This document shows, in pieces, positions 2,461-50,231 of a stretch of DNA of 64,000 nt; the first letter of the stretch is position 1; each line of letters starts with the position of its first letter. Both the position numbers and the translations under genes were made by a program. The DNA is taken from the IMG/VR virus record IMGVR_UViG_3300020165_000007, positions 186,001-250,000 of that record; one strand, written 5' to 3'. The stretch is from a virus. Below the pieces are notes generated by a model. It saw nothing but the letters and a program-made list of their open reading frames with translations, did not search any database and had not been told where the DNA came from.

Positions 2461-2488
2461 AAAAACCCCTCAACAATAAGGGGTTTTT
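2461..2488 (-). terminator. rho-independent terminator
   Basis: AAAAACCCCT and its complement flank an eight-base loop. The hairpin sits 24 bases after the stop of the cysteine-rich lipoprotein gene and can work in either direction. Confidence 0.75.
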
Positions 2489-2511: not shown

Positions 2512-2688
2512 TTATCCACAGCAGGACATATCACAACAATTTCCTTCACACTTTGTTTCATCACAGTGGTCCATTTGACAACATGTTGTCTCCTTAACAC
2601 ACTCTGACTCGGATTCACAACAGGACATTTCTGATGACGTTGCACAACTAAACAATCCGACAGATAACAGAATAAATAAATGTTTCAT
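2512..2688 (-). CDS. cysteine-rich lipoprotein, copy 1
   Basis: 58 residues: a signal peptide with a lipobox ending LFSC (Cys at about residue 15), then a short mature part with eleven cysteines, mostly in CC pairs (SCCES, TTCCQMDHC, GNCCD, SCCG). The ATG overlaps the TGA of the upstream gene (ATGA). A second copy of the same length lies at 7051-7227; the mature parts share the spacing of all cysteines and the CEGNCCD motif. The protein is probably lipid-anchored in the envelope and may bind metal or form disulfides. It is too short for the usual gene-length cut-offs but the paralogy makes it convincing. Confidence 0.85.
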   Translation of the reverse strand: MKHLFILLSVGLFSCATSSEMSCCESESECVKETTCCQMDHCDETKCEGNCCDMSCCG

Positions 2689-3233
2689 GTTGTTTTGTTA
2701 TTATTATTACAGAATCCCTTAACAGGTACACCTGAACTGGATATAAAATTATCGATAGCTTTAGCCAATTCATCACCCCTATCGTAAGAGACTCTTAATT
2801 CTTCGAGGACACCGTCTTTTAATTCCTTAGACATCTCAAAACTTCTACCCTTATTTACTGCTCTAATTATATCATCGATGAGGTTCACCAACTTACTATC
2901 TAATTTATCTAACAATAAACCGATAGCTTCGTCAGGTGTGTTTACCTTTTCACCCACCTGAACTTTTTTAATTACATTTTTAATTGCAAATACACACTGA
3001 GCAACAGCACCTTCGACGTTATCACAAAGACTGTCAGAATCTGCAAGACCATTTAAAGTTTTAAACAAGCTCATCATAACATTTTTATACTTAGTGACCA
3101 ACTCAAGGGCAGTAATTTTAGGGGGTCTGTTCTGAACTTTATCCTTTACCTTATCAATAATATTTTCATCGACTGAATACATGTTAAGAATGTCGTGTTT
3201 TTCAGACTCAGATATAATAATTCTTTTACTCAT
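2685..3233 (-). CDS. tagged hypothetical protein
   Basis: 182 residues. The N-terminus (MSKRIIISESEKHDILNMY) is the same tag type as at 1064-1756 and 7336-7980. The rest is helical with several Lys/Glu/Asp-rich stretches and four cysteines; no enzyme motif is seen. A TATTTAT box lies 14 bases before the ATG, and the gene is coupled by ATGA to the cysteine-rich lipoprotein gene. Candidate internal virion protein by the tag alone. Confidence 0.75.
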   Translation of the reverse strand: MSKRIIISESEKHDILNMYSVDENIIDKVKDKVQNRPPKITALELVTKYKNVMMSLFKTLNGLADSDSLCDNVEGAVAQCVFAIKNVIKKVQVGEKVNTPDEAIGLLLDKLDSKLVNLIDDIIRAVNKGRSFEMSKELKDGVLEELRVSYDRGDELAKAIDNFISSSGVPVKGFCNNNNKTT

Positions 3234-3247
3234 AATATTCTTTTATT

Positions 3248-3254
3248 ATAAATA
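3248..3254 (-). promoter_or_regulatory. putative phage promoter box TATTTAT
   Basis: Sense-strand TATTTAT, 14 bases before the ATG of the tagged gene ending at 2685. Confidence 0.45.
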
Positions 3255-3332
3255 TCACAAGAAAGAAAAAAGTTAACCCACATTATCTTAAAGAGTCACT
3301 ACAGGAGTTCCCATAAGAAGTCGAAAAAAACA

Positions 3333-3346
3333 CGTCCGAAAGGACG
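3333..3346 (-). terminator. hairpin with T-run, possible second terminator
   Basis: CGTCC and GGACG enclose a four-base loop; on the minus strand a run of T residues follows. It lies between the DoxX-like gene's own terminator and the next gene start, so it may end a short transcript from this 190-base gap, in which I see no coding frame. Confidence 0.5.
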
Positions 3347-3405
3347 AAAAAAAATTTTTCGGTAATCCGGCATCAGAGAGATTTACAAACAAATAAGCAA
3401 AATAA

Positions 3406-3431
3406 AACCCCCAAACCGAAGAAAGGGGGTT
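3406..3431 (-). terminator. rho-independent terminator
   Basis: AACCCCC pairs with GGGGGTT around a twelve-base loop, 21 bases behind the DoxX-like gene, followed on the minus strand by TTTTATT. Confidence 0.7.
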
Positions 3432-3452
3432 AAATTTACAAACGTAATAGGA

Positions 3453-3818
3453 TTACGCTCTACGGAGATAAGTTTCATCACGAAGGATATAACCAATAAA
3501 GGCAAATGAACCCAACATAATAGGTGCCATAACTCCTGAACCCCCCATCATAGAGAGATGCATGACCACAGCTCCCGTCATAATGGAACCCAAAAGAACG
3601 GAACCATATAATGAAGTACGGGGGTATACAAACAAAATAACACCAAGAACTTCAAGAATACCCACCATAGTAAGGTAAGGGGTTAAGTTCATAAATGTAA
3701 AATTGTTTATCATCTCTTCTGTACCGAAGATTTTAGAGAATCCTCCCATTCCCAACATAACAGCAACAAACGCCGTAAATAACCAACCTAAGTTGGCAAG
3801 TGTTAAATACTTTTTCAT
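3453..3818 (-). CDS. DoxX-like integral membrane protein
   Basis: 121 residues with four predicted transmembrane helices (about 8-25, 48-65, 72-90 and 96-112). The spacing, the N-terminal GxxKIFG-like segment and the loop YPRTSLYGS fit the small DoxX/DoxX-like family. Members sit in the inner membrane and have loose links to redox and quinone metabolism; function is not settled. It is a single-gene unit with its own terminator. It looks like a gene of bacterial origin carried by the phage. Confidence 0.75.
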   Translation of the reverse strand: MKKYLTLANLGWLFTAFVAVMLGMGGFSKIFGTEEMINNFTFMNLTPYLTMVGILEVLGVILFVYPRTSLYGSVLLGSIMTGAVVMHLSMMGGSGVMAPIMLGSFAFIGYILRDETYLRRA

Positions 3819-3890
3819 AATATATAATTTTAGTTTTATATAATATATAAAATGATAAAATACTTGTAAATAGATGATATATGAAGAAAC

Positions 3891-4046
3891 TTAACGATTA
3901 CCGTTAATAAATTCCAAATCCTCGATTTCCTTAATAATACTGTCGACACTGAAATTAACACCGTTAGTCGTAGGTATCTGAAAATGAGTGGTACCCCTTT
4001 CCTTGAGAATATATAACATGTCCTTAACTTGTGAGAGATTATTCAT
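3891..4046 (-). CDS. small hypothetical protein
   Basis: 51 residues (starts MNNLSQVKDM, ends EFINGNR), in a gap between two clear genes. It is mildly acidic and has no membrane segment. Codon use resembles its neighbours. No family recognised. Confidence 0.55.
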   Translation of the reverse strand: MNNLSQVKDMLYILKERGTTHFQIPTTNGVNFSVDSIIKEIEDLEFINGNR

Positions 4047-4064
4047 ACCAATAAATATATTAAA

Positions 4065-4613
4065 TTATTTAATACTAACAGTGATTTCTAAAGGAATCGT
4101 TACCTTCTTCTCATAAGGGGGACATACTTCCGTGTCGACGTCCCCGTCATAATCTATATACGTAATCTCTACTTTACCCCCGTCAAGAAGAACCTGAGAT
4201 ATAGGGGGGTAAATTCTTTTATAGTTATTTGTTGATGACCCTATGAAACCATATTCTGTAATTTGATTATTGTTTTGTGAATCACCTACTAATAGACATC
4301 CTGATGTATCCTCAGCAGTATTTCCAATATGAATTAAAATATATTCAAATCCTGGTACATCCCTAACCCATAACATCCCCTTATTAAAGTCTGTACCAAA
4401 TCGTTCATTATAATCTTGGTTCATACCTCCTTCTGTTCTAAGAGTTACGTTGTATGTTCCTGATGGTACCCGTGTCTTACCTGATACCTTTTCATCTCTA
4501 TACTCATCTTCCAAAGTATAAGATAGAAACTTACGTTTACCGTCAGTTACATCAAATAAAATCCCATTAGTTGATGTCCCCTCACTTGATATTCTTAATA
4601 CTTCTAGTTTCAT
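4065..4613 (-). CDS. DUF5675-like protein, possible cell-wall enzyme
   Basis: 182 residues. The segment with PSGTYNV, then FGTDF, then VPGFEYILIHIGNTAEDTSGC matches the DUF5675 family. It carries an HxGN...SGC pattern reminiscent of L,D-transpeptidase-like folds, with a possible catalytic Cys. Phages and prophages often carry this family close to lysis genes, but the activity is not proven. The gene starts seven bases after the end of the upstream gene, so the two are probably co-transcribed. Confidence 0.75.
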   Translation of the reverse strand: MKLEVLRISSEGTSTNGILFDVTDGKRKFLSYTLEDEYRDEKVSGKTRVPSGTYNVTLRTEGGMNQDYNERFGTDFNKGMLWVRDVPGFEYILIHIGNTAEDTSGCLLVGDSQNNNQITEYGFIGSSTNNYKRIYPPISQVLLDGGKVEITYIDYDGDVDTEVCPPYEKKVTIPLEITVSIK

Positions 4614-4620
4614 ATATTAA

Positions 4621-4974
4621 TCATTTAATAAAAGGTACCATATCTATATACCTAATATTAGCGTTTAATTTCTTATCGTTAAAAAATGTAGAATGTATTT
4701 CCGTTAACTTAGCAAAAATATCCCCCTTCACTCCCATACTGCCTATTCCTCTCATTCCTTTACAATCTTCTTTAACACTAACTTTAATTTTAGGGGTGAT
4801 ATATTCGTTAAATTTATCATTCATTCTTCTCTCAAAGTCATCTTTGGGTGGGTGTCGAACTAACGATTCACTACCAGAAACAAATCCATCAAACTCAATC
4901 TTATCAATACATTTATGTACTGAAGGTAACATGTACTTTACGAGTAAACTATATTTTTCTTCAAAGTCTTCCAT
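4621..4974 (-). CDS. hypothetical protein
   Basis: 117 residues from the ATG at 4974 (MEDFEEKYS). I prefer this start to one at 4989 because a TATTTAT box ends four bases before it, a spacing seen at several other genes here. The protein has several charged helices and the segment VSVKEDCKGMRGIGSMGVKG. No known domain. It is followed directly by the DUF5675-like gene. Confidence 0.65.
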   Translation of the reverse strand: MEDFEEKYSLLVKYMLPSVHKCIDKIEFDGFVSGSESLVRHPPKDDFERRMNDKFNEYITPKIKVSVKEDCKGMRGIGSMGVKGDIFAKLTEIHSTFFNDKKLNANIRYIDMVPFIK

Positions 4975-4978
4975 ATAA

Positions 4979-4985
4979 ATAAATA
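4979..4985 (-). promoter_or_regulatory. putative phage promoter box TATTTAT
   Basis: Sense-strand TATTTAT, four bases before the preferred ATG at 4974, which would give a nearly leaderless message. Confidence 0.4.
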
Positions 4986-5019
4986 TCATTATGTTTGGAT
5001 AATTGTACAGTTATCACTA

Positions 5020-5026
5020 TATTTAT
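5020..5026 (+). promoter_or_regulatory. putative phage promoter box TATTTAT
   Basis: TATTTAT three bases before the ATG at 5030 of the exported protein gene; divergent to the box at 4979-4985. Confidence 0.35.
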
Positions 5027-5029
5027 AGT

Positions 5030-5539
5030 ATGAAACAATTACTAAGTATTTACCTTTCTTTTTTTTCGTTGTGTGTATATTCACAAACAGATAGTTTAGT
5101 TTATTACAGACCTAACTACTACACACAGTTTTTGTTGGATTCTTTAAATGTACCATTTATTCCATTGGATTTAAGAAATGATACATCATATAATAACAAT
5201 GAATATATTAGTGAGTTTAATAACTATTTCGGTAATGACTTAGTTTATCTCCCTAATCAAAATACTGATTACTATGATTTTTTAGAATCTGACCTTGAGG
5301 ACCTTTTTGGTAATTTAAAGTCTTTATTAAAACCCGATGGTGTAATTGGTGAAAGATTTATTGAGGACGGAGATAATTTATATCGTTTAATTGAATACTT
5401 TGATATTGTAGATAATGAAAATATTAGGGTCTATTACTTTAAAACAACTCTATATAAATTAAGTACTAATGGTGGGTGGGTCTCAATTATTGACCCTCCT
5501 TCGGATAAGTTACCAAAATTTAACAAAACTTACATGTAA
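5030..5539 (+). CDS. exported hypothetical protein
   Basis: 169 residues from the ATG at 5030. The first 19 residues form a signal peptide (MKQLLSIYLS... ending VYSQ, the Gln-after-Ser style common in Bacteroidota). The mature part is Tyr/Asn/Asp-rich with repeated aromatic residues and an acidic centre. No domain recognised. It is one of few plus-strand genes in this part and ends in a strong hairpin shared with the converging gene. Confidence 0.7.
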   Translation: MKQLLSIYLSFFSLCVYSQTDSLVYYRPNYYTQFLLDSLNVPFIPLDLRNDTSYNNNEYISEFNNYFGNDLVYLPNQNTDYYDFLESDLEDLFGNLKSLLKPDGVIGERFIEDGDNLYRLIEYFDIVDNENIRVYYFKTTLYKLSTNGGWVSIIDPPSDKLPKFNKTYM

Positions 5540-5540
5540 T

Positions 5541-5566
5541 AAAAAAGGGTCAACTGACCCTTTTTT
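5541..5566. terminator. bidirectional terminator
   Basis: An almost perfect palindrome of AAAAAAGGGTC and its complement around AACT, placed between the converging ends at 5539 and 5586. Either direction yields a T-run. Confidence 0.8.
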
Positions 5567-5585
5567 ATTTAATATATGTAATGAC

Positions 5586-6203
5586 TTATAAAGAATTTGA
5601 TAATTCACCAAATCTCTCACTGATTTTATTACCAAACAATTTAATAACTTCTTCTTTATTTGATATAGTACTTAATGCGTTTTTAAAACTATCAAATGCG
5701 CTTTTCTTATTATGTTCAAAATTAATTCTAAACCATGAAGGATTATCTGGATATGTCTCAACATTAAGGCCATTCATGTCTTTTCTAATAACTACATATA
5801 CTCCTCCATAAGTATCAGATTCAGAATCTGATATATAAGGATAACCGTCCTTCGAATAAAGAGGTTTATATACATTCCATTTTAGATTATGTATATCTCC
5901 TGCAATATCCTTTTCTTCATTATTTTCACCATAATTTTTTAATTTAAAAATGTATCCGTTAAAAAAAAACGGAGTTTCCTTGTTTTGACTAGCAACCGAT
6001 AAGAAATTATTAAAGTTTCCATTATCTAATCCAAAGTCGGCATCGAACTTACTATATTTAATGTTTTCATATAGGTCAACCTGACCCAATTGTTTGTTGA
6101 CCATTTGCTGGAACTTCTCGTTCATCAGCTTCATACCACCTGAATGTTGTTCCCTTATAGAGTTTTTTTCTTCCTCCGATATGTTATTTAGTAAATGTTT
6201 CAT
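5586..6203 (-). CDS. tagged hypothetical protein
   Basis: 205 residues. The N-terminus (MKHLLNNISEEEKNSIREQ, then LMNE near residue 29) is a variant of the SEEEK tag seen in several genes here. The remainder has aromatic and Gly-rich segments such as PFFFNGYIFK and GGVYVVIRKD and looks beta-rich; no known domain. A TATTTAT box lies 17 bases before the ATG. Candidate packaged protein. Confidence 0.75.
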   Translation of the reverse strand: MKHLLNNISEEEKNSIREQHSGGMKLMNEKFQQMVNKQLGQVDLYENIKYSKFDADFGLDNGNFNNFLSVASQNKETPFFFNGYIFKLKNYGENNEEKDIAGDIHNLKWNVYKPLYSKDGYPYISDSESDTYGGVYVVIRKDMNGLNVETYPDNPSWFRINFEHNKKSAFDSFKNALSTISNKEEVIKLFGNKISERFGELSNSL

Positions 6204-6220
6204 ATTAATATCATTTTATT

Positions 6221-6227
6221 ATAAATA
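6221..6227 (-). promoter_or_regulatory. putative phage promoter box TATTTAT
   Basis: Sense-strand TATTTAT, 17 bases before the ATG at 6203 of a tagged gene. Confidence 0.45.
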
Positions 6228-6253
6228 CTCAGTAACATTAAAAAATTACAATT

Positions 6254-6439
6254 TTATATACCTAATTCAGTTACCCTACCCATAATATACGATTTCTTCT
6301 TTTCCAATAAGGTAATTTGTTTAGTTTCACTTTCGTCTAAATCAAATTTATTCATTTTAATTGAATTAATTTGATTCTCCAATCGATGGTATTCATTCAA
6401 ATAGTCATCATATAACTTAGCCTTTGCATTATCATTCAT
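6254..6439 (-). CDS. small coiled-coil hypothetical protein
   Basis: 61 residues, strongly helical with heptad-like spacing (YDDYLNEYHRLENQI, then LLEKKKSYIMGRV). I associate similar short helical proteins with T4-like marine phages, from memory. No function is known. Confidence 0.65.
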   Translation of the reverse strand: MNDNAKAKLYDDYLNEYHRLENQINSIKMNKFDLDESETKQITLLEKKKSYIMGRVTELGI

Positions 6440-6480
6440 ACTTAAAATTTAACAAATTAAATAATATAGTATATGGTAAA

Positions 6481-6687
6481 TTACTTTTTACTGTATTTTA
6501 CTTTTTTCTTATCATTTGGGAATCTACTGAAATTACCCATACCGTCGATATCCATTTCATCAGCCTCATTGGATAAACTCTTAAATTCTTTTTCTTGTTC
6601 TTTATGAGAACGATTAATCATTGTTAATAACCCCAACATATATAGGATGAAAATAATTGACCCGACAGTAAACATAATAATTTGCAT
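6481..6687 (-). CDS. single-pass membrane protein
   Basis: 68 residues with one N-terminal transmembrane helix (about residues 3-24), then a charged soluble tail ending in a basic KKKVKYSKK. It starts six bases behind the upstream membrane gene, so the two form a small operon. No family recognised. Confidence 0.65.
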   Translation of the reverse strand: MQIIMFTVGSIIFILYMLGLLTMINRSHKEQEKEFKSLSNEADEMDIDGMGNFSRFPNDKKKVKYSKK

Positions 6688-6692
6688 GATAA

Positions 6693-6893
6693 TCAGTTTT
6701 TGTTTTTGTAGTAATCATTTCGACGTTGACGAATAGTTGTCGACATACTCAAGATTGAAGGAACCCAAATCCCAACAAAGATACCCTCAAGTTGATATCC
6801 CATAAACCATAGTGTAACCGAATACAGGAATGAGATGAAAGCAAGAATAACGGGATAATAAATTTCCCAAAATGTAATTAGTTTGTTTTTCAT
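6693..6893 (-). CDS. two-helix membrane protein
   Basis: 66 residues from the ATG at 6893; an upstream in-frame ATG at 6920 is less likely because it would read through poorly coding sequence. Two hydrophobic helices (about 13-31 and 36-52) are followed by a basic tail (RQRRNDYYKNKN). I recall similar proteins (FWEIYYPVILAF, GIFVGIWVPSI) in marine phages and bacteria; role unknown. Confidence 0.65.
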   Translation of the reverse strand: MKNKLITFWEIYYPVILAFISFLYSVTLWFMGYQLEGIFVGIWVPSILSMSTTIRQRRNDYYKNKN

Positions 6894-7001
6894 ACCAAAA
6901 AGATAATAATAACTTTCCAATTTCTCAAGTTTTTTCTGGAAATTTTCAGAGAGGTTTTTACCCCTTTTTCAGAAAGAGGGTCTTGTTTCTATATAATAAA
7001 A

Positions 7002-7024
7002 AACCCCTCCGAGTTGGAGAGGTT
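7002..7024 (-). terminator. rho-independent terminator
   Basis: AACCCCTCC pairs with GGAGAGGTT (one mismatch), followed on the minus strand by T residues; it lies 27 bases behind the second cysteine-rich lipoprotein gene. Confidence 0.7.
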
Positions 7025-7050
7025 TTTAAAATCAGATAAGGATTGTTGGA

Positions 7051-7227
7051 TTATCCACAGCAGGACACATCACAACAATTACCTTCACACTTGTCGGTAT
7101 TACAGTGGTCCATTTCACAACATACAACATCTTTTGTACAATCTGTTTTAGATTCACAACAAGCCATCTCTGTTGATGCCGAACAACTGAATAATCCTAA
7201 CGTTAAGATTACTAATAAATTTTTCAT
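7051..7227 (-). CDS. cysteine-rich lipoprotein, copy 2
   Basis: 58 residues from the ATG at 7227 (MKNLLVILTL). A longer frame starts upstream, but this start gives a signal peptide with lipobox LFSC at the same place as copy 1. The mature part has CC pairs at the same spacing as copy 1 (ACCES, VVCCEMDHC, CEGNCCD, SCCG). The two copies differ mainly in the signal and the linker residues, so they are diverged paralogues kept at the same length. Likely envelope-anchored metal-binding or disulfide-rich protein; function unknown. Confidence 0.85.
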   Translation of the reverse strand: MKNLLVILTLGLFSCSASTEMACCESKTDCTKDVVCCEMDHCNTDKCEGNCCDVSCCG

Positions 7228-7264
7228 GATAATTAATTTATAATTGTTTATACCAATATGTATG

Positions 7265-7316
7265 CCAATTTTCCCAAAAATTTTAATCAATAAAAAACCC
7301 CTCCGTATTGGAGAGG
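7265..7316. repeat. intergenic direct repeat, copy 1
   Basis: About 52 bases starting CCAATTTT and ending in the GGAGAGG arm of a terminator recur at 8006-8058 with three or so differences. The unit joins the upstream region of one gene to the terminator of the next. Confidence 0.75.
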
Positions 7317-7318
7317 TT
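7296..7318 (-). terminator. rho-independent terminator
   Basis: AACCCCTCC pairs with GGAGAGGTT around GTATT, behind the tagged gene that ends at 7336. It is part of the duplicated intergenic unit. Confidence 0.7.
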
Positions 7319-7335
7319 CTTATTTTTTATTTTGG

Positions 7336-7980
7336 TCATAGAGGTGGTTTTGTCCCTGTTGGTTTTGGTACTGTACCTCCAATATGCGCAATCGAGTCTA
7401 AATAACGTAATGCTTTAGACAACTCTTCAACCCTATACTTTAAATCAGGAGGAGTCATACTCATTAGTTTTCCCTTTGAAGTTCCACTATTCCTAACTTC
7501 TTCTACAAAATCTGGTAGTCTAGATTTTTTAACACGGTTTATAAAATCTTTGAATTCAGTTTTACTTAAATACAACATGTCTTTTAACCATTTTAAGGGA
7601 AGATAGTCACCATCAATTTTTTGAGTTTGTATTAAATCACTTACGATATCAAAAGGTTCTTCGTATTGGTCTTCATATCCAGTACCTTTGACAGTACTAT
7701 TCCAAAAACCACCTATGTTATTCAATATACTACGATTTGTTTCATTAGTATTCATAACTTGATTCACCATTTCCTTATTACGAATATCAAGTAACTCTTC
7801 CCTAGTTTTATTTAAGATAGGTAAAACTTCAGATAATGATTGTTGAACAGTTTTCATTTTTGATAGTTGGTCTAATTGGTCACCCACTTTAAACTCATCA
7901 TTAGATTGTTCATCAATCAAACCATACATCTCTTGTATGTTTCTTTTTTCTTCTTCGGATAATAATATTTGTCGTCCCAT
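7336..7980 (-). CDS. tagged hypothetical protein
   Basis: 214 residues from the ATG at 7980 (MGRQILLSEEEKRNIQEMY, LIDEQ near residue 24). This start matches the tag in other genes and leaves a TATTTAT box 17 bases upstream. The body is helical and charged, with a Trp/Phe patch (NIGGFWNSTVKG) and a Pro-rich tail (VPKPTGTKPPL). No domain recognised. Candidate internal virion protein. Confidence 0.75.
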   Translation of the reverse strand: MGRQILLSEEEKRNIQEMYGLIDEQSNDEFKVGDQLDQLSKMKTVQQSLSEVLPILNKTREELLDIRNKEMVNQVMNTNETNRSILNNIGGFWNSTVKGTGYEDQYEEPFDIVSDLIQTQKIDGDYLPLKWLKDMLYLSKTEFKDFINRVKKSRLPDFVEEVRNSGTSKGKLMSMTPPDLKYRVEELSKALRYLDSIAHIGGTVPKPTGTKPPL

Positions 7981-7997
7981 AGTATTATTGTTTACCA

Positions 7998-8004
7998 ATA
8001 AATA
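7998..8004 (-). promoter_or_regulatory. putative phage promoter box TATTTAT
   Basis: Sense-strand TATTTAT, 17 bases before the ATG at 7980. Confidence 0.45.
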
Positions 8005-8005
8005 T

Positions 8006-8058
8006 CCAATTTTTCCAAAAAATTTTAATCAATAAAAAACCCCTCCGTATTGGAGAGG
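8006..8058. repeat. intergenic direct repeat, copy 2
   Basis: Near-identical to 7265-7316. Here the terminator arm also encodes the last residues of the metalloprotease gene. Confidence 0.75.
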
Positions 8059-8660
8059 GTCTTATTCCAACCTTCATACGCAATGGCTGTAGTACGTTCA
8101 AGTACTTCTGCAAAGTATTCTTCATTATCGTTAATTAAATCAACCATTACTGCCCTTTCATCTTCCCACCAATTATCAGTCTTTAAATTATTTCTCATCC
8201 ACTCGTTTTCAGACAGTGTTATTAAATAACGAGTTAAGTGTAATGATTCATGAGCCAAAATTCTGTTAATATATCCTGGTGATGATGCTCTTTGCACATT
8301 TATAAATTCAAATAGTTGGTCCCTATAAAAATTGGTTAAACCACCAATATATGCATCATCCATTTCCGTCCTTCCTTCAGATTCCATTTTGGTTATGTGT
8401 TCCTCAGCACCTTCTCTAGTTAGACCTGCAATTTCATTAGTACCAAAAGCATCAAAAATAGATAAACTACTATCCCCAAAAATTAAATGATAAGGTTGTA
8501 ATTTAATGTCCTTTTTATCTATAACATCAAATACACCAACGGTAACTAATTCATGTAGTAAAACACCTGTTTTTTTGGGTAAAGAAATGGACTTACTGAT
8601 AGATTTTTGTTCTCTATCTTCCAACTCTTCTTTTAATACTTTTCGGATTAATTCTTTCAT
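8025..8660 (-). CDS. tagged zinc-metalloprotease-like protein
   Basis: 211 residues from the ATG at 8660. The N-terminus (MKELIRKVLKEELEDRE) is one of four near-identical tags in the window. Around residues 137-170 an HESLH motif (HExxH zincin signature) is followed about 25 residues later by an acidic segment WWEDERA that could give the third zinc ligand. A TATTTAT box lies four bases before the ATG. The last residues are encoded by the terminator hairpin, so the natural C-terminus may have been extended by the duplication of that hairpin. I infer a packaged protease; the protease fold is moderately sure, the target is unknown. Confidence 0.75.
   Translation of the reverse strand: MKELIRKVLKEELEDREQKSISKSISLPKKTGVLLHELVTVGVFDVIDKKDIKLQPYHLIFGDSSLSIFDAFGTNEIAGLTREGAEEHITKMESEGRTEMDDAYIGGLTNFYRDQLFEFINVQRASSPGYINRILAHESLHLTRYLITLSENEWMRNNLKTDNWWEDERAVMVDLINDNEEYFAEVLERTTAIAYEGWNKTLSNTEGFFID
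8038..8060 (-). terminator. rho-independent terminator inside a gene end
   Basis: AACCCCTCC pairs with GGAGAGGG around GTATT; the stop codon of the metalloprotease gene lies just beyond the hairpin. Confidence 0.65.
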
Positions 8661-8664
8661 ACAA

Positions 8665-8671
8665 ATAAATA
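8665..8671 (-). promoter_or_regulatory. putative phage promoter box TATTTAT
   Basis: Sense-strand TATTTAT, four bases before the ATG at 8660 of the tagged metalloprotease gene. Confidence 0.45.
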
Positions 8672-8739
8672 CCAAATTTTCTCAAAAATTTTATAAACAA
8701 TTTTTTCAGGATTCCCATACAAATTTCATTTAGGCTATT

Positions 8740-9649: not shown

Positions 9650-10060
9650 TAGGGTTTTATTTTATAACTTGTTCATAACTAATTCCTCCTGTTGATATCA
9701 TTAGGGGGAATTGTTGATAACTTTTTATGTCATTTTATTTGGTTTTGTCAAAATGTCATGTGGACTTTGCTCACAGCACAATCCCTTTGGAGGGTTTTGT
9801 ATTAGTATCCCCCCTCATATTTTCCAGCTAATAATAAATAAATCGATGATTTCATCGGCAGAATCCCCGATTTTCTTTAGTTCCCCCTTTTCTAAATGTC
9901 CATTCTGAGTGTATTAAAAGGGGTATATAATTTCCAGATAAAAAGGTGCATTATAAAGGGGGTGTGGGTGAGACGAAGTCCTATAATCCCCTCCAACGTT
10001 TCCCTATCCCCAATTCCTTTAGAAACCTGACAAAATGTCCATGTAAATAGACTTTCTTAA

Positions 10061-10090
10061 GTGGTAAAATGTGGTAGAAAGTGGTGTAAA
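10061..10090 (+). promoter_or_regulatory. three GTGGT repeats in exact 10-base register (MraZ-box-like)
   Basis: GTGGT starts at 10061, 10071 and 10081, each followed by an A-rich spacer. Bacterial MraZ, the regulator of division and cell-wall genes, binds short direct repeats of this kind with a 10-base period. No MraZ gene is seen here; a host MraZ site is an inference. Confidence 0.45.
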
Positions 10091-13074: not shown

Positions 13075-13701
13075 ATGGAAGATAATCTATCAGAGAAGTA
13101 TAACGAGTCACAAAGGATTAAACTGTTGTTTGACGGTTTGTTCTTTAACAAGATGGGATTGCCTTGTGATGTAGTGTATCTACCATCCATTTTTCAACAT
13201 TTGGTTGTTGTAAATATTGATTTATCTAAGATGTATCCATCTCTTGGTGGGAACCCTGATACGATTGAAGAACTCAAGAAAGGTAGGTTTCATAGGGACT
13301 TAACTAATTCTTTGAGATATATTGATGTTCTACCTATGGATGTTTATCCATATCCTGTGTTCTCTCTCGATAAAAAAGGTTTTGATGATTTGGATAATAT
13401 TAGAGATGGTGTGTTGAAATCTTATGAAGAAGTGAAAGATGAGATTGGTCATTGTCTAACTGAGGTCGATGTTGAATGGGTTCCTGATTTGGATACTATT
13501 TTAGGTAGGGACACAGTGGATGCAATCGATGAGTATATACTTAGTTTAGATGATGATATATCATTAGCCTTCAAACCATATTTATATTTCATGTATGGTC
13601 AGGGTAAGTGTGATGATATGAGTTTACCGTCAGCATATAAAGTATTTGACGATATCAACCCTGATATAAAATACATGAGACCTGAAAGAATTAAGAAATG
13701 A
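13075..13701 (+). CDS. hypothetical protein
   Basis: 208 residues, acidic, with a Tyr/Pro-rich middle (PMDVYPYPVFSL) and several Asp clusters. No signal, membrane helix or catalytic motif is seen. It is coupled by ATGA to the tagged gene behind it, so it probably belongs to the same late transcript. Confidence 0.65.
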   Translation: MEDNLSEKYNESQRIKLLFDGLFFNKMGLPCDVVYLPSIFQHLVVVNIDLSKMYPSLGGNPDTIEELKKGRFHRDLTNSLRYIDVLPMDVYPYPVFSLDKKGFDDLDNIRDGVLKSYEEVKDEIGHCLTEVDVEWVPDLDTILGRDTVDAIDEYILSLDDDISLAFKPYLYFMYGQGKCDDMSLPSAYKVFDDINPDIKYMRPERIKK

Positions 13702-14183
13702 GAGATTTAATTAAGAAAGTGTTAAGAGAAGAGTCCGAGTCTATGGACCTGATGCATTTTTGGAGTAACTCACCTAAGGTTACTGATGCAGATAACACAG
13801 AACAAATGGATGATTTCATGTGGCACATCATCAACTATGTGAATTTTCCATCTGACGGTAACTACAGAAGAATTAAAACTTTTATCAAATCTTTAATTAG
13901 GTATGGTTTGATAGATGTTGAATTCTATACCAACATGTATAGATGGTTGAATCGTAAGTTAAGGGAGATATCAACAATTGAAGAAGAATTTCAACTATCT
14001 TTGGATTATGTAGGTGGTGACGACTCATATAACGATTGGAAATGGTATGTTCTGTCTTTTGGTAAAGGTAATTTTGAAAGATTAAAGGAAGGTTATGATG
14101 ATAATATTACATTTGTTGAGTCACTAAACCCTGTAGAATCATTTCAGTATGCATGGCCTCATCCATATGATTTTAGAGACTGA
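13698..14183 (+). CDS. tagged hypothetical protein
   Basis: 161 residues. The N-terminus (MRDLIKKVLREESES) is the fourth member of the MKELIRKxL(R/K)E tag family in this window. The rest is rich in Trp, Tyr and Asp and looks helical; no domain is recognised. The start overlaps the previous stop as ATGA. Candidate packaged protein by tag. Confidence 0.75.
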   Translation: MRDLIKKVLREESESMDLMHFWSNSPKVTDADNTEQMDDFMWHIINYVNFPSDGNYRRIKTFIKSLIRYGLIDVEFYTNMYRWLNRKLREISTIEEEFQLSLDYVGGDDSYNDWKWYVLSFGKGNFERLKEGYDDNITFVESLNPVESFQYAWPHPYDFRD

Positions 14184-25190: not shown

Positions 25191-25527
25191 GTATATTTAA
25201 GTACTTCTTTTCTTCTGTTCTATTCAATACATAGGACATGTCAAAGTCTATACCTAGTCTTTCTTTTATACTGTTTTCTAAGTACTCCTGCATTTCAGGT
25301 GATTGTTCATAACCATAAAGAATAAGATTAGAAACTGATGGGAGTACTTTTAAATCAATAAAATCCAGTATATTTCTAACAATTATAAAGTAAGGTTTAC
25401 CATTCTTATGTAATACCGCAGTATCGTAGAGAAAACCTGGTAGGGTTCTATCTTCTAACTCTTGAAATTTGAGTCCATCGACAATATTGTCTATTTGTTT
25501 CTTTAATACATCAGGTAGAGTACTCAT
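25147..25527 (-). CDS. hypothetical protein
   Basis: 126 residues, alpha/beta in appearance (KPYFIIVRNILDFIDL) with a Leu/Pro-rich centre. Its end overlaps the end of the dehydratase gene by 44 bases on the other strand; its start overlaps the stop of the upstream tagged gene. No known domain. Confidence 0.6.
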   Translation of the reverse strand: MSTLPDVLKKQIDNIVDGLKFQELEDRTLPGFLYDTAVLHKNGKPYFIIVRNILDFIDLKVLPSVSNLILYGYEQSPEMQEYLENSIKERLGIDFDMSYVLNRTEEKKYLNILIPLLQGGTDSSNQ

Positions 25528-26438
25528 TTTTTTAATTTTTTTAAGTTAATAGGTACTACATTTCCTTTATCTAAATACATTAATATATCCACTGATTTAT
25601 AACTACCATTCAAATATCTTTTAATGAAATCTTCTTTTTGACCTACACCAGTTTTTACCTGTACAGTATATAGTTTTCCTTTAAATTCTACTATTAAGTC
25701 GATACCTAATTTCATATCTATAAAATCACCATCCCCGCCTTGTCTTACAACTGTACCTCCCCACTTATCACTTTCAATCCACTTTACCGCTTTATTTTCA
25801 GTCGCTAAACCTATTCTATCCGTAACCCCTAATTTTTTATCTGCTATATCTATTAAGTTATGCCCATCAAACATATTACCAAACTCATCTTGGATATCAT
25901 TTTTATATTTTTTTAAGATGTCTTTTAATCGGGTCGGGTTATTTTCCTCAGAAATTTGTTGTAAGATATCATTTCTACCTTGTTCAAATAAAATGTCAGT
26001 AACCAACTCAGAAAGTAAGGTATAATTTGTGTTTATCTTATTTGAGTGGTGCCACCTTCCGTTAACTTCAACTCTTTTAAAATTTTCTAACTCTTCTAAG
26101 AGTTTATTGTAATACCAAGAATTTATTTTATTAGCATTTTTTAACTTAAGTAACCATTCTTTTGAGTTTTCCTTTTCCTCGTTACTCATAGGTGATTTTA
26201 TTTCATCCTGAATGTCGTTAACCAATTTTTTAAGACCTAATCCATTATCACTATGTAAAAATGCTCTTAAATTATTAATTTTTTTTCGTATCTCTGACTT
26301 ATTAAAACTCACGGGCTCGTTATTGGGTATACCGTCCATATTTGGTATACCGTCATAGTTGTCCCCCCGCGGGTGCATTGGGTCATTGGGTCCGATAAGG
26401 TCTTGTTCTCTTAATATTTTACGTATAAGTTCTTTCAT
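25524..26438 (-). CDS. tagged PD-(D/E)XK-nuclease-like protein
   Basis: 304 residues. The N-terminus (MKELIRKILREQDLIG) is the same tag as the neighbour at 26477. A short repeat GIPNMDGIPN follows, then helical sequence. Near the end, KAVKWIESDKWGG leads to GIDLIVEFKGKLYTVQVKT, an Asp plus Q/E-x-Lys arrangement typical of PD-(D/E)XK nucleases and Holliday-junction resolvase-like folds. I infer a nuclease carried in the head and delivered with the DNA. The catalytic acid set is not fully certain. Confidence 0.7.
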   Translation of the reverse strand: MKELIRKILREQDLIGPNDPMHPRGDNYDGIPNMDGIPNNEPVSFNKSEIRKKINNLRAFLHSDNGLGLKKLVNDIQDEIKSPMSNEEKENSKEWLLKLKNANKINSWYYNKLLEELENFKRVEVNGRWHHSNKINTNYTLLSELVTDILFEQGRNDILQQISEENNPTRLKDILKKYKNDIQDEFGNMFDGHNLIDIADKKLGVTDRIGLATENKAVKWIESDKWGGTVVRQGGDGDFIDMKLGIDLIVEFKGKLYTVQVKTGVGQKEDFIKRYLNGSYKSVDILMYLDKGNVVPINLKKLKK

Positions 26439-26476: not shown

Positions 26477-27148
26477 TTATGACCCATATAATCTCCATGC
26501 ATTTCTATAGTTGTGGTCCATACCAGTCATATACAATCCGTACTTATCGATTATATCTAAAAAAGATTCTTTTGCTGCCATCCCTATTTCAGTAGTTACT
26601 TCATACAAATCATCTTGATGAATATCGTGGTCAATCATAAATAGTTCGTCAAAGTCCCATCTAGTATCATCATCTCTATCTAAAAATTGTACTGAACCGT
26701 TAGTTATGCGGACCTTCATACCTAATTCAGTACCATATGGATTTTCATCAGGGTTACCTTCCGTCCTACTGATAATCCCAATAGATAAAGGTGTCACATC
26801 CATTTCATATCCTCCTGAAGATATATGTCTTTTTTTACCTATACCTATTTCTTTTTTGGCTAATTCAAGTGCTTTATCATATCCACCATAGAATTTTATT
26901 TTCAGTTTGTCAATCTCCTCTTCGTATTCTAAACAATTTATACCAATATATCTACAGGGTGTTAGTTCTGTACCATTTTTACTCCAATAGTCAAATAAGA
27001 ATTCTTCTACTTGAGGACTTAGTTCCTTTTTTTTAGGTGCTCCTTGCCAACCTTCACTCATTTCATACTCATCACTTTTAGGTGAAGCGTCAGTAACATG
27101 TGAATACTCTAAGTCTTCTCTCAATATTTTACGTATAAGTTCTTTCAT
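26477..27148 (-). CDS. tagged hypothetical protein
   Basis: 223 residues, starting MKELIRKILREDLEYS, twelve residues of which match the next gene's tag almost exactly. The body is acidic with PCRYIGINCLEYEEEI and an RDDDTRWDFDELF stretch; no known domain. A TATTTAT box lies nine bases before the ATG. It is directly behind the large structured RNA gene, on the same strand. Confidence 0.75.
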   Translation of the reverse strand: MKELIRKILREDLEYSHVTDASPKSDEYEMSEGWQGAPKKKELSPQVEEFLFDYWSKNGTELTPCRYIGINCLEYEEEIDKLKIKFYGGYDKALELAKKEIGIGKKRHISSGGYEMDVTPLSIGIISRTEGNPDENPYGTELGMKVRITNGSVQFLDRDDDTRWDFDELFMIDHDIHQDDLYEVTTEIGMAAKESFLDIIDKYGLYMTGMDHNYRNAWRLYGS

Positions 27149-32161: not shown

Positions 32162-32190
32162 AAAAGACTCCTCATTATAAGGAGTCTTTT
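32162..32190 (-). terminator. terminator overlapping the pckA end
   Basis: AAAAGACTCC pairs with GGAGTCTTTT; the pckA stop codon is in the loop, and six T residues follow on the minus strand. Confidence 0.75.
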
Positions 32191-33647
32191 AACATAGTAA
32201 AAAATTTATCTTGTCTATTATTATCAGGTTTTTCAAAAACTTTTTCCATATTGTACTTACCTATTCTTTTTGGAATTTTTAATTCATTGTATTCTATGTA
32301 ATCATCTTCATAATCTCTTTCAATAACCCCATTAATAACTCCACGGGTTTGTGATAATGAGAATCTTTTATAATTTTTATCAAAACCTGTATTCACTAAC
32401 CACACTTTTACTTTGTGGTTATTCTCAACCCTATTTCTAAACATATTGGTGTAATCAGATATTTTCCTTGGTAGGAATGGGTCCCCAAAACAAGGTGAGA
32501 ACGTTGTGGTAGGTTCAGTAACTCCAACTTCAGTACCCGCAACTTTTGAAGTATACCCTAACTTAAAGTACTCAACTGCTTGTTCTGTATTTAATAATGA
32601 TATAGGTGGTAATACACCAAAAGCGTCAAAAGATAGAAAAAATATATTCTCAACCCCTAAACCTCTACCTGGCATACTTACCTTAACCTCACGTCTTATT
32701 TGGTCCAATGGATAAGAAACCCTAATGTTCTCTGTTATACTACTATCACTAAAATCAACATCACCTTCCTCATCAACTATAACATTCTCTAATAATGAGG
32801 TATTTGTTTTAGTGAATTTACTATGTATTGCGTCCCATATTACAGGTTCTTTATACTCATCTAAATCTATGAGTTTAGCGTAACATCCTCCTTCAAAGTT
32901 ATATATATAATCATCATACCATCCGTGTTCATCATCACCAATAAAATACTTTAAAGGGTCAGAAGATAGGGTAGTCTTACCAGTACCTGATAGTCCAAAA
33001 AATAAATTAACACCTCTACCGTCTTTAGTATTAGAATTAGCAGAACAATGCATCGGTAAGACTCCTCTATCAACTAAAAGAGTATTCATAACGGTAAAGA
33101 CACTTTTCTTTATCTCACCCGTATAACTCGTACCAGCTATTAAGATTTTTCTATCATCAAAATCTAATATTACAAAATTTTCATTTTTAACATCTTCAGG
33201 TCTATTTTTACTTACAAAATCAGGGCAATGTAATATTTCCCATTCAGTAAATGTAGTTGAGAATGTTGTGACAAAACTTTGTGGGTCAATTAACATATTA
33301 TTAAAGAATATGATAGCCCATGGTTCTGTACTTTCTATATTAAAAGTTGCACTGTGTTCATAATTGTAACCTGCAACTTGTCTAGCTCTGAAAGTTTTTG
33401 CGTTTTCTATATATTCTTTAATTTCATTTTTTAATGAAATATAACTATCTCTACTAACTCGTTGGTTTATGATTCTTTCAAAATCGATAGTCTTATCTGT
33501 ATATTTCCCCTCAGAAAAGTATCTATCTTTAGGTGACCTACCCGTAAATTTACCAGTATTAAAATGTAATAAACCCTCTTTGGTGGTCTTCATTCCTCTC
33601 TCCTTAGCAAGGGTCATTAATTGCTCAGTAGTTTCGTAATAAACCAT
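32175..33647 (-). CDS. pckA: ATP-type phosphoenolpyruvate carboxykinase
   Basis: 490 residues; cellular enzymes have about 530, and the shortening is at the N-terminus. TGRSPKDRYF (oxaloacetate site), MHCSAN, the kinase-1 loop FGLSGTGKTTLSSD, the kinase-2 GDDEHGW, RVSYPL and TEPTTTFSPCFGDPF are all kept, so it looks active. It interconverts oxaloacetate plus ATP and PEP plus CO2. It starts five bases behind a DNA methyltransferase gene and ends in a terminator. I know of no common phage use of this enzyme; it may shift carbon towards PEP, sugars and PRPP. Confidence 0.95.
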   Translation of the reverse strand: MVYYETTEQLMTLAKERGMKTTKEGLLHFNTGKFTGRSPKDRYFSEGKYTDKTIDFERIINQRVSRDSYISLKNEIKEYIENAKTFRARQVAGYNYEHSATFNIESTEPWAIIFFNNMLIDPQSFVTTFSTTFTEWEILHCPDFVSKNRPEDVKNENFVILDFDDRKILIAGTSYTGEIKKSVFTVMNTLLVDRGVLPMHCSANSNTKDGRGVNLFFGLSGTGKTTLSSDPLKYFIGDDEHGWYDDYIYNFEGGCYAKLIDLDEYKEPVIWDAIHSKFTKTNTSLLENVIVDEEGDVDFSDSSITENIRVSYPLDQIRREVKVSMPGRGLGVENIFFLSFDAFGVLPPISLLNTEQAVEYFKLGYTSKVAGTEVGVTEPTTTFSPCFGDPFLPRKISDYTNMFRNRVENNHKVKVWLVNTGFDKNYKRFSLSQTRGVINGVIERDYEDDYIEYNELKIPKRIGKYNMEKVFEKPDNNRQDKFFTMLKDSL

Positions 33648-39516: not shown

Positions 39517-39833
39517 TATAATACGTTTTTAACCATTTCTAATATTTGATTTTCACTAACTAAACCAACTTTATTACCCACATTTTCTCCTCCACTAAAA
39601 ATTTTAATATAGGGAATAGAACGTACCCCTAGTTGAGTAGCCATTTGTTGGTCTTCTTCAATGTTAAATTTATAAACTTTCATTTCACTTCCTTCTTCCT
39701 CCAATTTTTTAGCAACACTTTCGATAATCGGACTTAACATTCTGCAAGGTCCGCACCAATCCGCGTACAAATCTACTATAAATTTTTCACCTGAATTTAT
39801 TTTTTCTTGCAATTCCTGTGCATTTATTTTCAT
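39516..39833 (-). CDS. trxA: thioredoxin
   Basis: 105 residues, normal length. YADWCGPCRMLSP is the canonical active site, and RSIPYIKIF holds the cis-Pro. It is cytoplasmic (no signal). Paired with the glutaredoxin gene behind it, it likely reduces ribonucleotide reductase or serves as a polymerase partner. Confidence 0.95.
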   Translation of the reverse strand: MKINAQELQEKINSGEKFIVDLYADWCGPCRMLSPIIESVAKKLEEEGSEMKVYKFNIEEDQQMATQLGVRSIPYIKIFSGGENVGNKVGLVSENQILEMVKNVL

Positions 39834-40180
39834 ATTGTTTTATATTTTTTAAGTTGATTTAAGTAGAAGATTATACTATCAGAAGAATCTTCATTACATA
39901 AGTAATAAAATTTATATGTATTTTCATATTCATTTTTAGTAAAGTATAATAATGTTTTAGTATCTAAAAACTGTATTAATCCTTTATTGTAAATAGTGAC
40001 TTGACCATCAAAATATTTTTTTGACCATATAATTTTATTTTTTTTTAAAGTTATTCTTAACGCGTCAATAGTATAAAAATCAGTCTCAATAATAGAAGGT
40101 AAACTTCCAATTATATTCTCAGATAAGATTGATACTTTATTTGGTATACCATAATTGTTATGTTTTTCTTTATCTTTCAT
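39830..40180 (-). CDS. hypothetical protein
   Basis: 116 residues, rich in Ile, Lys, Tyr and Asn, alpha/beta in appearance. It lies between glutamine synthetase and thioredoxin with ATGA or one-base overlaps on both sides, so it is part of the same operon. No motif recognised. Confidence 0.6.
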   Translation of the reverse strand: MKDKEKHNNYGIPNKVSILSENIIGSLPSIIETDFYTIDALRITLKKNKIIWSKKYFDGQVTIYNKGLIQFLDTKTLLYFTKNEYENTYKFYYLCNEDSSDSIIFYLNQLKKYKTI

Positions 40181-41250
40181 TAAACTTCAAGTAATTCTTT
40201 TTCTATACTTTTTGAGTTTTTTACATAATCAATACTATCACTAATTACTTTAGTTATTTTATATGGGTCAGCGTTAGACGCAGGTCTTCTATCTTCTAGA
40301 TACCCCTTCCACGTTTTACTCGTTTGTAGTGGAACTCGTATAGACGCCCCTCTATCAGAAACACCCCAACTAAATTTAGTAATATTCTGGGTTTCATGTA
40401 ACCCTGTTAGTCTCATCTCATTACTTGAACCATAATTATTAATGTGTATATCATGTCTATCCTTGAAAGATTTAAATATATTTTGATAGTACTCTTCATC
40501 TCCGTCTTCCCTCATTTTTTTATTAGAGAAGTTACAGTGAAGTCCTGAACCGTTCCAATCACCTGTAACAGGTTTAGGATGAAATTCGATATCATAACCG
40601 TAATCCTCAGACATCTGATGTAAAATATATCTAGTAATCCATAGGTCATCTCCAGCCTTAATTTTACCCTTACTGAATACTTGGTATTCCCACTGACCTA
40701 GCATGACCTCAGCGTTCGTTCCAGTGATGTCTATACCGGCCATTATACAGTTTTCCATATGTTTATCAACAAACTCCCTACCTGTTACTTGTCCGTTACC
40801 TACACCGCAATAGTACTTTCCTTGTGGTTCAGGAAATCCATTTTTAGGAAAACCTATAGGTTTGCCGTCTTTCATTAGAGTATATTCTTGTTCAAATCCA
40901 AACCATAAATCCTCATCATCTTCATTAAATAATCCCCTACTATTACTTTCGTGTAATGTACCATCAGGGTTTAAAACTTCACATAGAACTAAATAACTTT
41001 CTAATAATCCATTATTCAGTGGATTTGGATAAAGTGTTACAGGTTTTAGTATACAATCGGAAAAATGTCCCTCAGCTTGTTCAGTGGACGACCCATCGAA
41101 TGACCATTCAGGGCAATCAGTTAACCCTACACCATGAACCGTTTTACCATGAATAGTGTGTGTAGGTGGGTTGATTACTTTTACTTTACTTCTGAGATTA
41201 GGTTCAGGATTATACCCATCTAACCATATGTATTCTAATTTAATTTTCAT
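40180..41250 (-). CDS. glnA: type II glutamine synthetase
   Basis: 356 residues, the length of eukaryote-type GSII and not of GSI (about 450). EWSFDGSSTEQAEG, WFGFEQEYTL, AGTNAEVM-like GTNAEVMLGQWEYQV, GDWNGSGLHCNFS, NEMRLTGLHET and SWGVSDRGASIRVP...DRRPASNADPY cover the active site. It makes glutamine from glutamate, ammonia and ATP, the nitrogen donor for purine and pyrimidine synthesis. Some Bacteroidota carry GSII, so capture from the host group is likely. Leads an operon with trxA and the glutaredoxin. Confidence 0.95.
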   Translation of the reverse strand: MKIKLEYIWLDGYNPEPNLRSKVKVINPPTHTIHGKTVHGVGLTDCPEWSFDGSSTEQAEGHFSDCILKPVTLYPNPLNNGLLESYLVLCEVLNPDGTLHESNSRGLFNEDDEDLWFGFEQEYTLMKDGKPIGFPKNGFPEPQGKYYCGVGNGQVTGREFVDKHMENCIMAGIDITGTNAEVMLGQWEYQVFSKGKIKAGDDLWITRYILHQMSEDYGYDIEFHPKPVTGDWNGSGLHCNFSNKKMREDGDEEYYQNIFKSFKDRHDIHINNYGSSNEMRLTGLHETQNITKFSWGVSDRGASIRVPLQTSKTWKGYLEDRRPASNADPYKITKVISDSIDYVKNSKSIEKELLEV

Positions 41251-41279: not shown

Positions 41280-41936
41280 TTATTTAACCGGAATTGGAGT
41301 ACCAACGGGATATGGTGACCCTTCTTTCGCAGCAGTGACAGAAGTCATACCTGAATCTACAGGAATAGCAAATCTTAATGGAATTGCCGCCTCATTTAAA
41401 GGACCATAACATTTGGATAATATTATACCATTGTCAAGTGTGTCTATTATGTCACATGGCATTGCGAACATATTACTCATACTGGTACTTGGTGAATTTG
41501 TGTCAACAATAAACTTACGATTAGTTGGTGGTAACCATTCCCATCCGTTAGTTTCAGGATTAAATTGTGGTACTGTATCACTTGATGTAAAGAACCAAAA
41601 GAATGACCATGTTGTTCCGTCTGTCCCATCAGGAGTTTGTTGATTTTCTTTTACATTAAACTCTCCCCAAGTTTCACTTTTACCTTCCATAGCCAAGTTG
41701 GAAATTGATAGTCCGTTCATAACAGGACAAATTGCACAACCTTCGTCGAACTCAGTTCCTTGTACAGTTATTTTTTTACCTGTAGGTACAGCACCTGACG
41801 CCCCACAGAATGAGAAAGAACCTTCATGTAGTACAACCACTTCTTCAGGTTCAGGAGCGCATGTATCCACTTCCGTTTGTTGTCCACAACTTAGTAGTAA
41901 GAAGGATGACAACAATGTTAATAATGTTTTTTTCAT
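41280..41936 (-). CDS. exported lipoprotein
   Basis: 218 residues. Signal peptide with lipobox LLSC at about residues 14-17. The mature part has SFCGASGAVPTGKKITVQGTEFDEGCAICPVM, five or so cysteines and Trp-rich strands (GTTWSFFWFF, NGWEWLPP), pointing to a beta-rich domain. No family recognised. It sits 30 bases upstream of glnA and may be co-transcribed with it; a palindrome lies just ahead. Confidence 0.75.
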   Translation of the reverse strand: MKKTLLTLLSSFLLLSCGQQTEVDTCAPEPEEVVVLHEGSFSFCGASGAVPTGKKITVQGTEFDEGCAICPVMNGLSISNLAMEGKSETWGEFNVKENQQTPDGTDGTTWSFFWFFTSSDTVPQFNPETNGWEWLPPTNRKFIVDTNSPSTSMSNMFAMPCDIIDTLDNGIILSKCYGPLNEAAIPLRFAIPVDSGMTSVTAAKEGSPYPVGTPIPVK

Positions 41937-50120: not shown

Positions 50121-50231
50121 TTAATCTTGATTTTTGAATTTTTCAATCAATACAGATATAACGGATATAGTTATTATTGAGATTGAAAGGATTAAAAAAA
50201 GTATGTCGAATATTGGGAAACCTTTATACAT
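50121..50231 (-). CDS. 36-residue membrane peptide
   Basis: MYKGFPIFD followed by one strongly hydrophobic helix and a short KFKNQD tail. Its ATG overlaps the stop of the PiT-like gene by eight bases, so it may be a small partner of that permease. Confidence 0.5.
   Translation of the reverse strand: MYKGFPIFDILFLILSISIITISVISVLIEKFKNQD

Follow-up and report, generated by a model that had tools for sequence, protein, structure and literature searches.

Cysteine-dense mini-lipoproteins carried as an accessory gene by large phages: candidates for an envelope metal trap

Two cysteine-dense lipoprotein genes in a T4-like phage record

The DNA analysed here is a window of 64,000 nucleotides, corresponding to bases 186001-250000 of the 270,383-base virus record IMGVR_UViG_3300020165_000007. 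Two short genes, hereafter copies A and B, are located on its minus strand and each codes for a 58-residue cysteine-rich lipoprotein (Table 1). An earlier note on this DNA had placed two paralogous lipoprotein genes with 11 mature cysteines at the same positions, with no strand given, which was borne out; the two proteins share 62% identity in an ungapped alignment. Both consist of a signal peptide (residues 1-14), a cysteine predicted to be lipidated (Cys15) and a mature part of 44 residues. The lipobox LFSC stands at the end of the hydrophobic signal stretch, and 11 further cysteines bring the total to 12 in each protein. It also holds true that gene callers can easily overlook such genes. 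The longer frame in which one of them was said to be hidden corresponds to an extension of the reading frame of A up to a TTG start (79 amino acids). A search of the whole virus record gave two matches, A and B, and no further copy.

Among the 192 ATG-started frames of at least 40 amino acids in the window, A and B have the two highest cysteine contents (20.7%, followed by 12.2% for the next frame). Pairwise comparison of the mature parts of seven intact family members, described below, revealed that the proportion of synonymous differences (pS) exceeds that of non-synonymous ones (pN) in all 21 pairs, showing that the frame is selected as a protein. The corresponding rate ratio (dN/dS) is at most 0.39 wherever it could be computed, dS being saturated in five of the 21 pairs. 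Being the cysteine extremes of the window and having relatives with a synonymous excess, A and B are not chance frames. They are real protein genes under purifying selection.

Two further genes of the virus record code for a major capsid protein of the T4 type (Gp23, E 1.7e-62) and for a prohead protease (Peptidase_S77, E 1.1e-23); both are absent from all 14 control genomes. Judged by these genes, the record is a 270-kb T4-like phage, and A and B are phage genes. The nearest named isolates by major capsid protein include Flavobacterium phage immuto (38.6% identity over 67%), Microcystis phage Mel-JY01 and Rhodothermus phage RM378, and a Bacteroidota host is therefore likely.

A conserved family present as a come-and-go cassette

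Copy A, used as the query in a first IMG/VR scan, yielded three contigs. The pattern CCxMDHC...CEGNCCDxSCCG, which had been proposed for finding relatives, led to a wider family in viral contigs: scanning for CCxMDHCxxxxC returned 12 loci, eight of which hold the family (one in broken form) while four do not. When seven aligned members were used in a final scan, eight contigs were confirmed, or nine including the record of the window. They span at least four lineages, namely the group of the window with 3300020187 and 3300021371; 3300024262; 3300027782 with 3300027732; and 3300031963 with 3300008267 and 3300027720.

The seven intact members have 24 invariant columns in common. Cysteines 15, 24, 30, 36, 37, 42, 47, 51, 52, 56 and 57, the last eight cysteines among them, are invariant in all of them, and so are M39-D40-H41, E48-G49, D53 and S55; Met, Asp and His residues adjoining cysteines are thus among the conserved positions. 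The core of the proposed pattern holds, except that two members have R in place of its final G and two have Q in place of the N in EGN. A lipobox, LFSC or LFGC, ends at residue 15 in every intact member (16 in those of 59 amino acids), and all seven display the positive N-terminus, hydrophobic stretch and [GAS]-Cys lipobox by which bacterial lipoproteins, as substrates of signal peptidase II, are predicted. The mature part has 44 residues and 11 or 12 cysteines in total in all seven. One further copy, in contig 3300008267 (L297/L308), carries a frameshifting deletion of 61 nucleotides, and its neighbouring genes match those of 3300031963. The deletion may be a real loss or an assembly collapse, which look the same here.

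The cysteine gene is a come-and-go accessory cassette. Sister phages were found with both copies, with A only, with one copy at a third site and with none. Both copies are present in contig 3300020187. Contig 3300021371 has copy A and the nucleotidyltransferase gene at 100% identity, and another gene replaces both B and the gene before it. A single copy occurs in 3300024262 at a third position, between relatives of the window genes 6254-6439 and 4065-4613. Neither copy is found in contig 3300025892 (L009), despite DoxX and nucleotidyltransferase being 95% and 91% identical to those of the window. At site A of this contig the alignment picks up again inside the terminator following A, the two phages having the same terminator core, and at site B the slot is filled by a different 50-codon frame with nearly the same first bases. 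In L008, as in L009, B is absent at its site. The conservation of the frame in relatives, on which the earlier note had made its proposal depend, holds for the carriers, but one close relative lacks the gene and one contig has it in broken form. Across sister phages, the slot before the nucleotidyltransferase gene is occupied by the cysteine gene or by different MKHLLNN-tagged genes. In a scan of 91 records (the window and 90 loci, including 80 that had been retrieved by means of the nucleotidyltransferase), no more than three different sequences of such a lipoprotein were found.

A neutral gene that merely hitch-hikes and is being lost, of no benefit to the phage, would agree with the sister contig lacking it, with the replacement of B in another and with the 61-nucleotide deletion. 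However, the excess of synonymous differences in all pairs with its low dN/dS, the retention of two copies in one genome and that of the lipobox and cysteine spacing across lineages make this explanation very improbable.

Predicted location and possible function of the mature peptide

Surface lipoproteins of Bacteroidota are reported to display the export motifs K-(D/E)2 and Q-A-(D/E)2 (PMC5080379). These motifs, with S-(D/E)2 also accepted, were looked for at positions +2 to +7 after the lipobox cysteine, and none of the six distinct mature sequences contains one. A periplasm-facing location is therefore expected, and a lipoprotein facing the periplasm is the simplest prediction. The outward surface cap that had been considered earlier is unlikely, because a known Bacteroidota export signal is lacking in all six sequences.

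The mature parts of the seven members contain 25-27% cysteine, no Phe, Tyr, Trp or Pro, one to three Ile, Leu or Val, and seven to ten acidic residues. Besides the anchor, 10 or 11 cysteines are found in 44 residues, 11 being the number in six of the seven members. A cysteine-dense composition low in aromatic and aliphatic residues is typical of metallothioneins, and the absence of aromatic residues in all seven small, cysteine-rich members agrees with it. Such a composition is poor for a hydrophobic core or a docking face. The metal capture suggested in the earlier note fits this composition and the conserved M-D-H-C, as far as a metal-thiolate role may be read from sequence. The invariance of the cysteine domain in phages with differing neighbour genes would likewise be more in keeping with a small ligand found everywhere than with a receptor specific to one host. 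As 11 is an odd number, at least one cysteine would be left unpaired within the molecule if the others were disulfide-bonded. A fold made of disulfides only is less likely, since 11 cysteines cannot all pair in one molecule and since AlphaFold2, when given seven sequences, produced no stable fold (mean predicted local distance difference test score, pLDDT, 48.7). A peptide that needs metal in order to fold would be expected to show such low confidence, a weak point considering the moderately confident model obtained with three sequences.

A periplasm-facing, lipid-anchored, metallothionein-like metal trap is tentatively favoured on these grounds. The mechanism that is inferred, in its lipidation, periplasmic orientation, metal binding and metal identity as in its benefit to the phage, would be the following. 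A and B would be copies of an accessory phage gene from which a tiny lipoprotein is made during infection. The signal peptidase and lipid-transfer machinery of the host would anchor it by Cys15, probably at the periplasmic face of the outer membrane. The 44-residue tail would form a metallothionein-like thiolate domain, with 10 or 11 cysteines besides the anchor and with Met39 and His41, binding several Cu(I) or Zn(II) ions. Metal of the envelope would thereby be sequestered, and either detoxified or withheld from envelope enzymes of the host. It is conceivable, if more doubtful, that the family is the first one of metallothioneins encoded by phages and anchored by a lipid. With this mobile cassette of a single gene, large T4-like phages of Bacteroidota would load the envelope of the infected cell with a copper or zinc trap that starves or protects envelope enzymes during infection.

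A possible hint at copper was found outside the family. Locus L252, from a Bacteroidia metagenome-assembled genome, codes at 1238-1459 for a short (73 amino acids), cysteine-rich, exported-looking protein with a hydrophobic N-terminus and the same spacing of the last eight cysteines, upstream of two genes of the multicopper oxidase family (2984-5077). Among 46 bacterial loci with this spacing, no other short protein of exported appearance was seen by eye to end in the eight-cysteine scaffold. It has no lipobox at the corresponding place and no Pfam family. The hint counts little, since the similarity does not go beyond what the cysteine positions alone yield (the observed scores are reached by 560 and 311 of 2000 shuffles with fixed cysteines), the genome is not found by a profile built from three family members, and the locus was a choice made afterwards among 46 genome matches.

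These weaknesses of the L252 locus have to be held against the metal trap, and several other observations join them. With three sequences, AlphaFold2 gave a strand-containing model (mean pLDDT 60.5, block means of 72-77 for residues 21-50) that might represent a fold rich in disulfides, and in the oxidising periplasm the cysteines may be disulfide-bonded. In L289, the first cysteine of the first pair is replaced by Ser. No HMA metal-binding domain was found in the phage record by a search that was positive in 13 of 14 control genomes. An all-against-all blastp of seven loci revealed no gene common to all except the lipoprotein, and no partner, for metal or otherwise, could therefore be named.

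The surface exclusion raised in the earlier note is not supported as an outward cap but keeps some ground as superinfection exclusion, because Llp of phage T5 and Rtp45 of phage Rtp are reported to act from the periplasmic side (PMC12685063). By analogy with Llp on FhuA or Rtp45 on LptDE, a disulfide-bonded tail would bind the periplasmic side of the outer-membrane receptor used by the phage, alter its outer loops and block the adsorption of a second phage or of released progeny. The same source describes both as small periplasm-facing phage lipoproteins, Rtp45 having about 6 kDa and a Cys30-Cys38 disulfide (PMC12685063). The size, the lipobox and the missing surface-export signal agree with this type, and accessory presence and absence in sister phages would suit a host-dependent moron. 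Against this stand the strong conservation of the cysteine domain in phages with differing gene surroundings, as exclusion proteins should track their receptor, the absence of aromatic and scarcity of aliphatic residues for docking, and a cysteine count far above what the single disulfide of Rtp45 needs. Moreover, no receptor-binding gene was recognised beside the cysteine gene in the loci compared, where no dedicated search was made. Superinfection exclusion is the main rival of the metal trap, and is held to be the less likely of the two.

The cysteine density would also suit a thiol-redox decoy, a tail that consumes or supplies disulfides (through enzymes of the DsbA/VKOR type or a phage thioredoxin) and thereby disturbs the oxidative folding of proteins in the host envelope, or quenches oxidants there, during infection. 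A thioredoxin gene is indeed present in the same phage record, and a DoxX_2 gene, weakly MauE-like, lies between A and B. However, the thioredoxin frame has 107 amino acids and its match covers model positions 4-102, leaving little room for a signal peptide; L009 has DoxX without the cysteine gene; and a decoy does not need exact conservation of M-D-H and C-E-G. This explanation is considered improbable.

Searches for known relatives gave no acceptable family in Pfam (best LSR, E 0.005, below its cut-off), NCBIfam or PHROGs, and therewith no metallothionein family either; none of the seven members matches a PADLOC defence model. No match was obtained in phage records with copy B or in plasmid records with copy A. 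A weak tblastn match of the L288 member to a human faecal phage record (35% identity, E 0.2) was set aside as chance. In the PDB, matches are short CCxxDHC alignments to three-finger receptors, with no metallothionein among them. They bring up a disulfide-knotted envelope or adhesion peptide of eukaryote-like fold, with a structural or binding role, sharing CC-x-x-D-x-C with three-finger receptors. Profile matches over CCxxDHC include TGF-beta receptor type 1 and a three-finger toxin homologue (best E 0.041), and a second profile search matched TGF-beta and activin receptors (best E 0.024). Yet only 20-26 residues align, at marginal E-values (0.024 to 2.4), and not a full-length Ly6/TGF-beta receptor-like domain; five more cysteines follow the motif, and the model confidence dropped with more sequences. 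Three-finger domains are larger than the phage protein, which is too short for three fingers. Such a fold is hardly to be expected here.

A bacterial origin was looked for by two scans of bacterial contigs and two profile searches (395 Bacteroidia genomes each), none of which gave an acceptable relative. The first contig scan produced 68 stretches, none confirmed by tblastn. The second gave the 46 loci mentioned above, all but L252 being, by eye, repeats, low-complexity stretches, longer proteins or frames with stops; L249, L250, L234, L237 and L241 are also cysteine-rich, mostly as tandem repeats. In the first profile search 56 of the 395 genomes matched at E up to 0.1, and 20 fetched loci contained no cysteine-rich lipoprotein by eye. 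The second matched one genome of 395 (L309, E 1.6e-4), without a frame of at least six cysteines in 45 residues. Scanning viral contigs by the eight-cysteine scaffold alone is uninformative on distant family members, the 177 in-frame matches in at least 120 loci being all repeats or low complexity by eye. A stricter version gave 11 loci, of which L263 and L266 hold known members and the others are of low complexity or interrupted by stops.

Genomic context, known systems and significance

The features around A and B are collected in Table 1. Because of the ATGA overlap between stop and start, B is probably translated as the downstream partner of the gene before it. The promoter-like module upstream of A is a near-copy of one before a neighbouring gene (start 8022, minus). 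A terminator-like hairpin, CCTCTCCAAnnCGGAGGGG, repeats between genes at 7022, 7316 and 8058 of the window (minus), at 6370 of L009 and at 3298 and 4410 of L005; it is located where swapped genes begin or end, in the manner of a seam left by recombination.

Table 1. Positions of the lipoprotein genes and of other features (window coordinates unless a locus is named)
Feature	Position	Strand	Remark
Copy A, 58-residue cysteine-rich lipoprotein gene	7227..7051	minus	protein MKNLLVILTLGLFSCSASTEMACCESKTDCTKDVVCCEMDHCNTDKCEGNCCDVSCCG
Copy B, 58-residue cysteine-rich lipoprotein gene	2688..2512	minus	protein MKHLFILLSVGLFSCATSSEMSCCESESECVKETTCCQMDHCDETKCEGNCCDMSCCG
Gene immediately upstream of B	2685..3233	minus	starts MSKRIIISESEK; stop overlaps start of B (ATGA)
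Intrinsic-terminator-like hairpin after A	6999..7027	minus	core identical in L009; twice in L005
Terminator-like hairpin after B	2466..2482	minus	
Promoter-like module upstream of A	7256..7281	minus	sequence resemblance only
Terminator-like hairpin of upstream gene, other edge of cassette A	7293..7321	minus	
Slot before nucleotidyltransferase gene	2512-2688; L009 11337-11489; L008 8920-9627		
Copy with deletion (IMGVR_UViG_3300008267_000598)	L308 about 9950-10080		61-nucleotide deletion, natural
Tagged proteins	1064-1756, 2685-3233, 5586-6203, 7336-7998, 8025-8675, 25524-26438, 26477-27148	minus	
Tagged protein	13698-14183	plus	
Phage thioredoxin	39528-39830	minus	PF00085, E 1.3e-23

At least eight otherwise different proteins of the window have common N-terminal tags, KRIIxSExEK...LxEQ or MKELIRKxLREE, which presumably resemble the capsid-targeting tag of T4-type phages. 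With the S77 prohead protease in the record, it looks like many proteins are packaged in the head. The tag MKKVVRLTESDLxxIVKRVI is used by other phages that carry the family. Elsewhere in the window, a TonB-dependent outer-membrane receptor with plug, barrel and CarbopepD_reg_2 (42082-44835, minus) adjoins a lipoprotein-like protein of 218 amino acids (41280-41936, minus). Host-like metabolic genes are found on the minus strand at 32175-33647, 40180-41250 and 50224-51159, resembling phosphoenolpyruvate carboxykinase, type II glutamine synthetase and the PHO4 phosphate transporter; all matches are below the curated cut-offs, with very low E-values except for PHO4.

The closest parallels in make-up are bacterial metallothioneins, SmtA/BmtA of cyanobacteria and MymT of Mycobacterium tuberculosis, which are likewise very small and cysteine-dense. 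SmtA also has His near Cys, as in the phage lipoprotein. These proteins are cellular and cytosolic, whereas the one described here is phage-encoded and predicted to be exported and lipid-anchored. MymT, too, is reported to come from a small, non-annotated open reading frame (PMC7558416). Copper-storage proteins of the Csp1 type are likewise exported and have many cysteines, and the Csp1 structure contains 13 Cu(I) ions. Csp1 is reported to be a four-helix bundle exported by the Tat pathway that folds without metal, in contrast to the 44 mature residues of the phage lipoprotein, for which no helix bundle is predicted. Llp and Rtp45 are also tiny phage lipoproteins, reported to be in the outer membrane and to face the periplasm, a location that is predicted here; Rtp45, with its one disulfide, has far fewer cysteines. 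No sequence relation of either to the phage lipoprotein was found, where no direct comparison was made. In the open-access literature, the titles and abstract openings of the matches listed, which for one query were the best 15 of 443, describe no phage metallothionein or lipoprotein of this kind. The protein is classed with the small envelope lipoproteins of phages; its make-up is metallothionein-like, but it is not placed among the metallothioneins.

Phage lipoproteins of fewer than 60 residues are readily overlooked in gene calling. Llp and Rtp45, the two that are best known, block receptors. If the present family were an exclusion factor after all, it would be a chemically unusual one. A conserved cysteine-dense phage lipoprotein would point to metal or thiol chemistry of the envelope as a target of phage takeover, and the seven sequences together with clean pairs of presence and absence make this idea directly testable.

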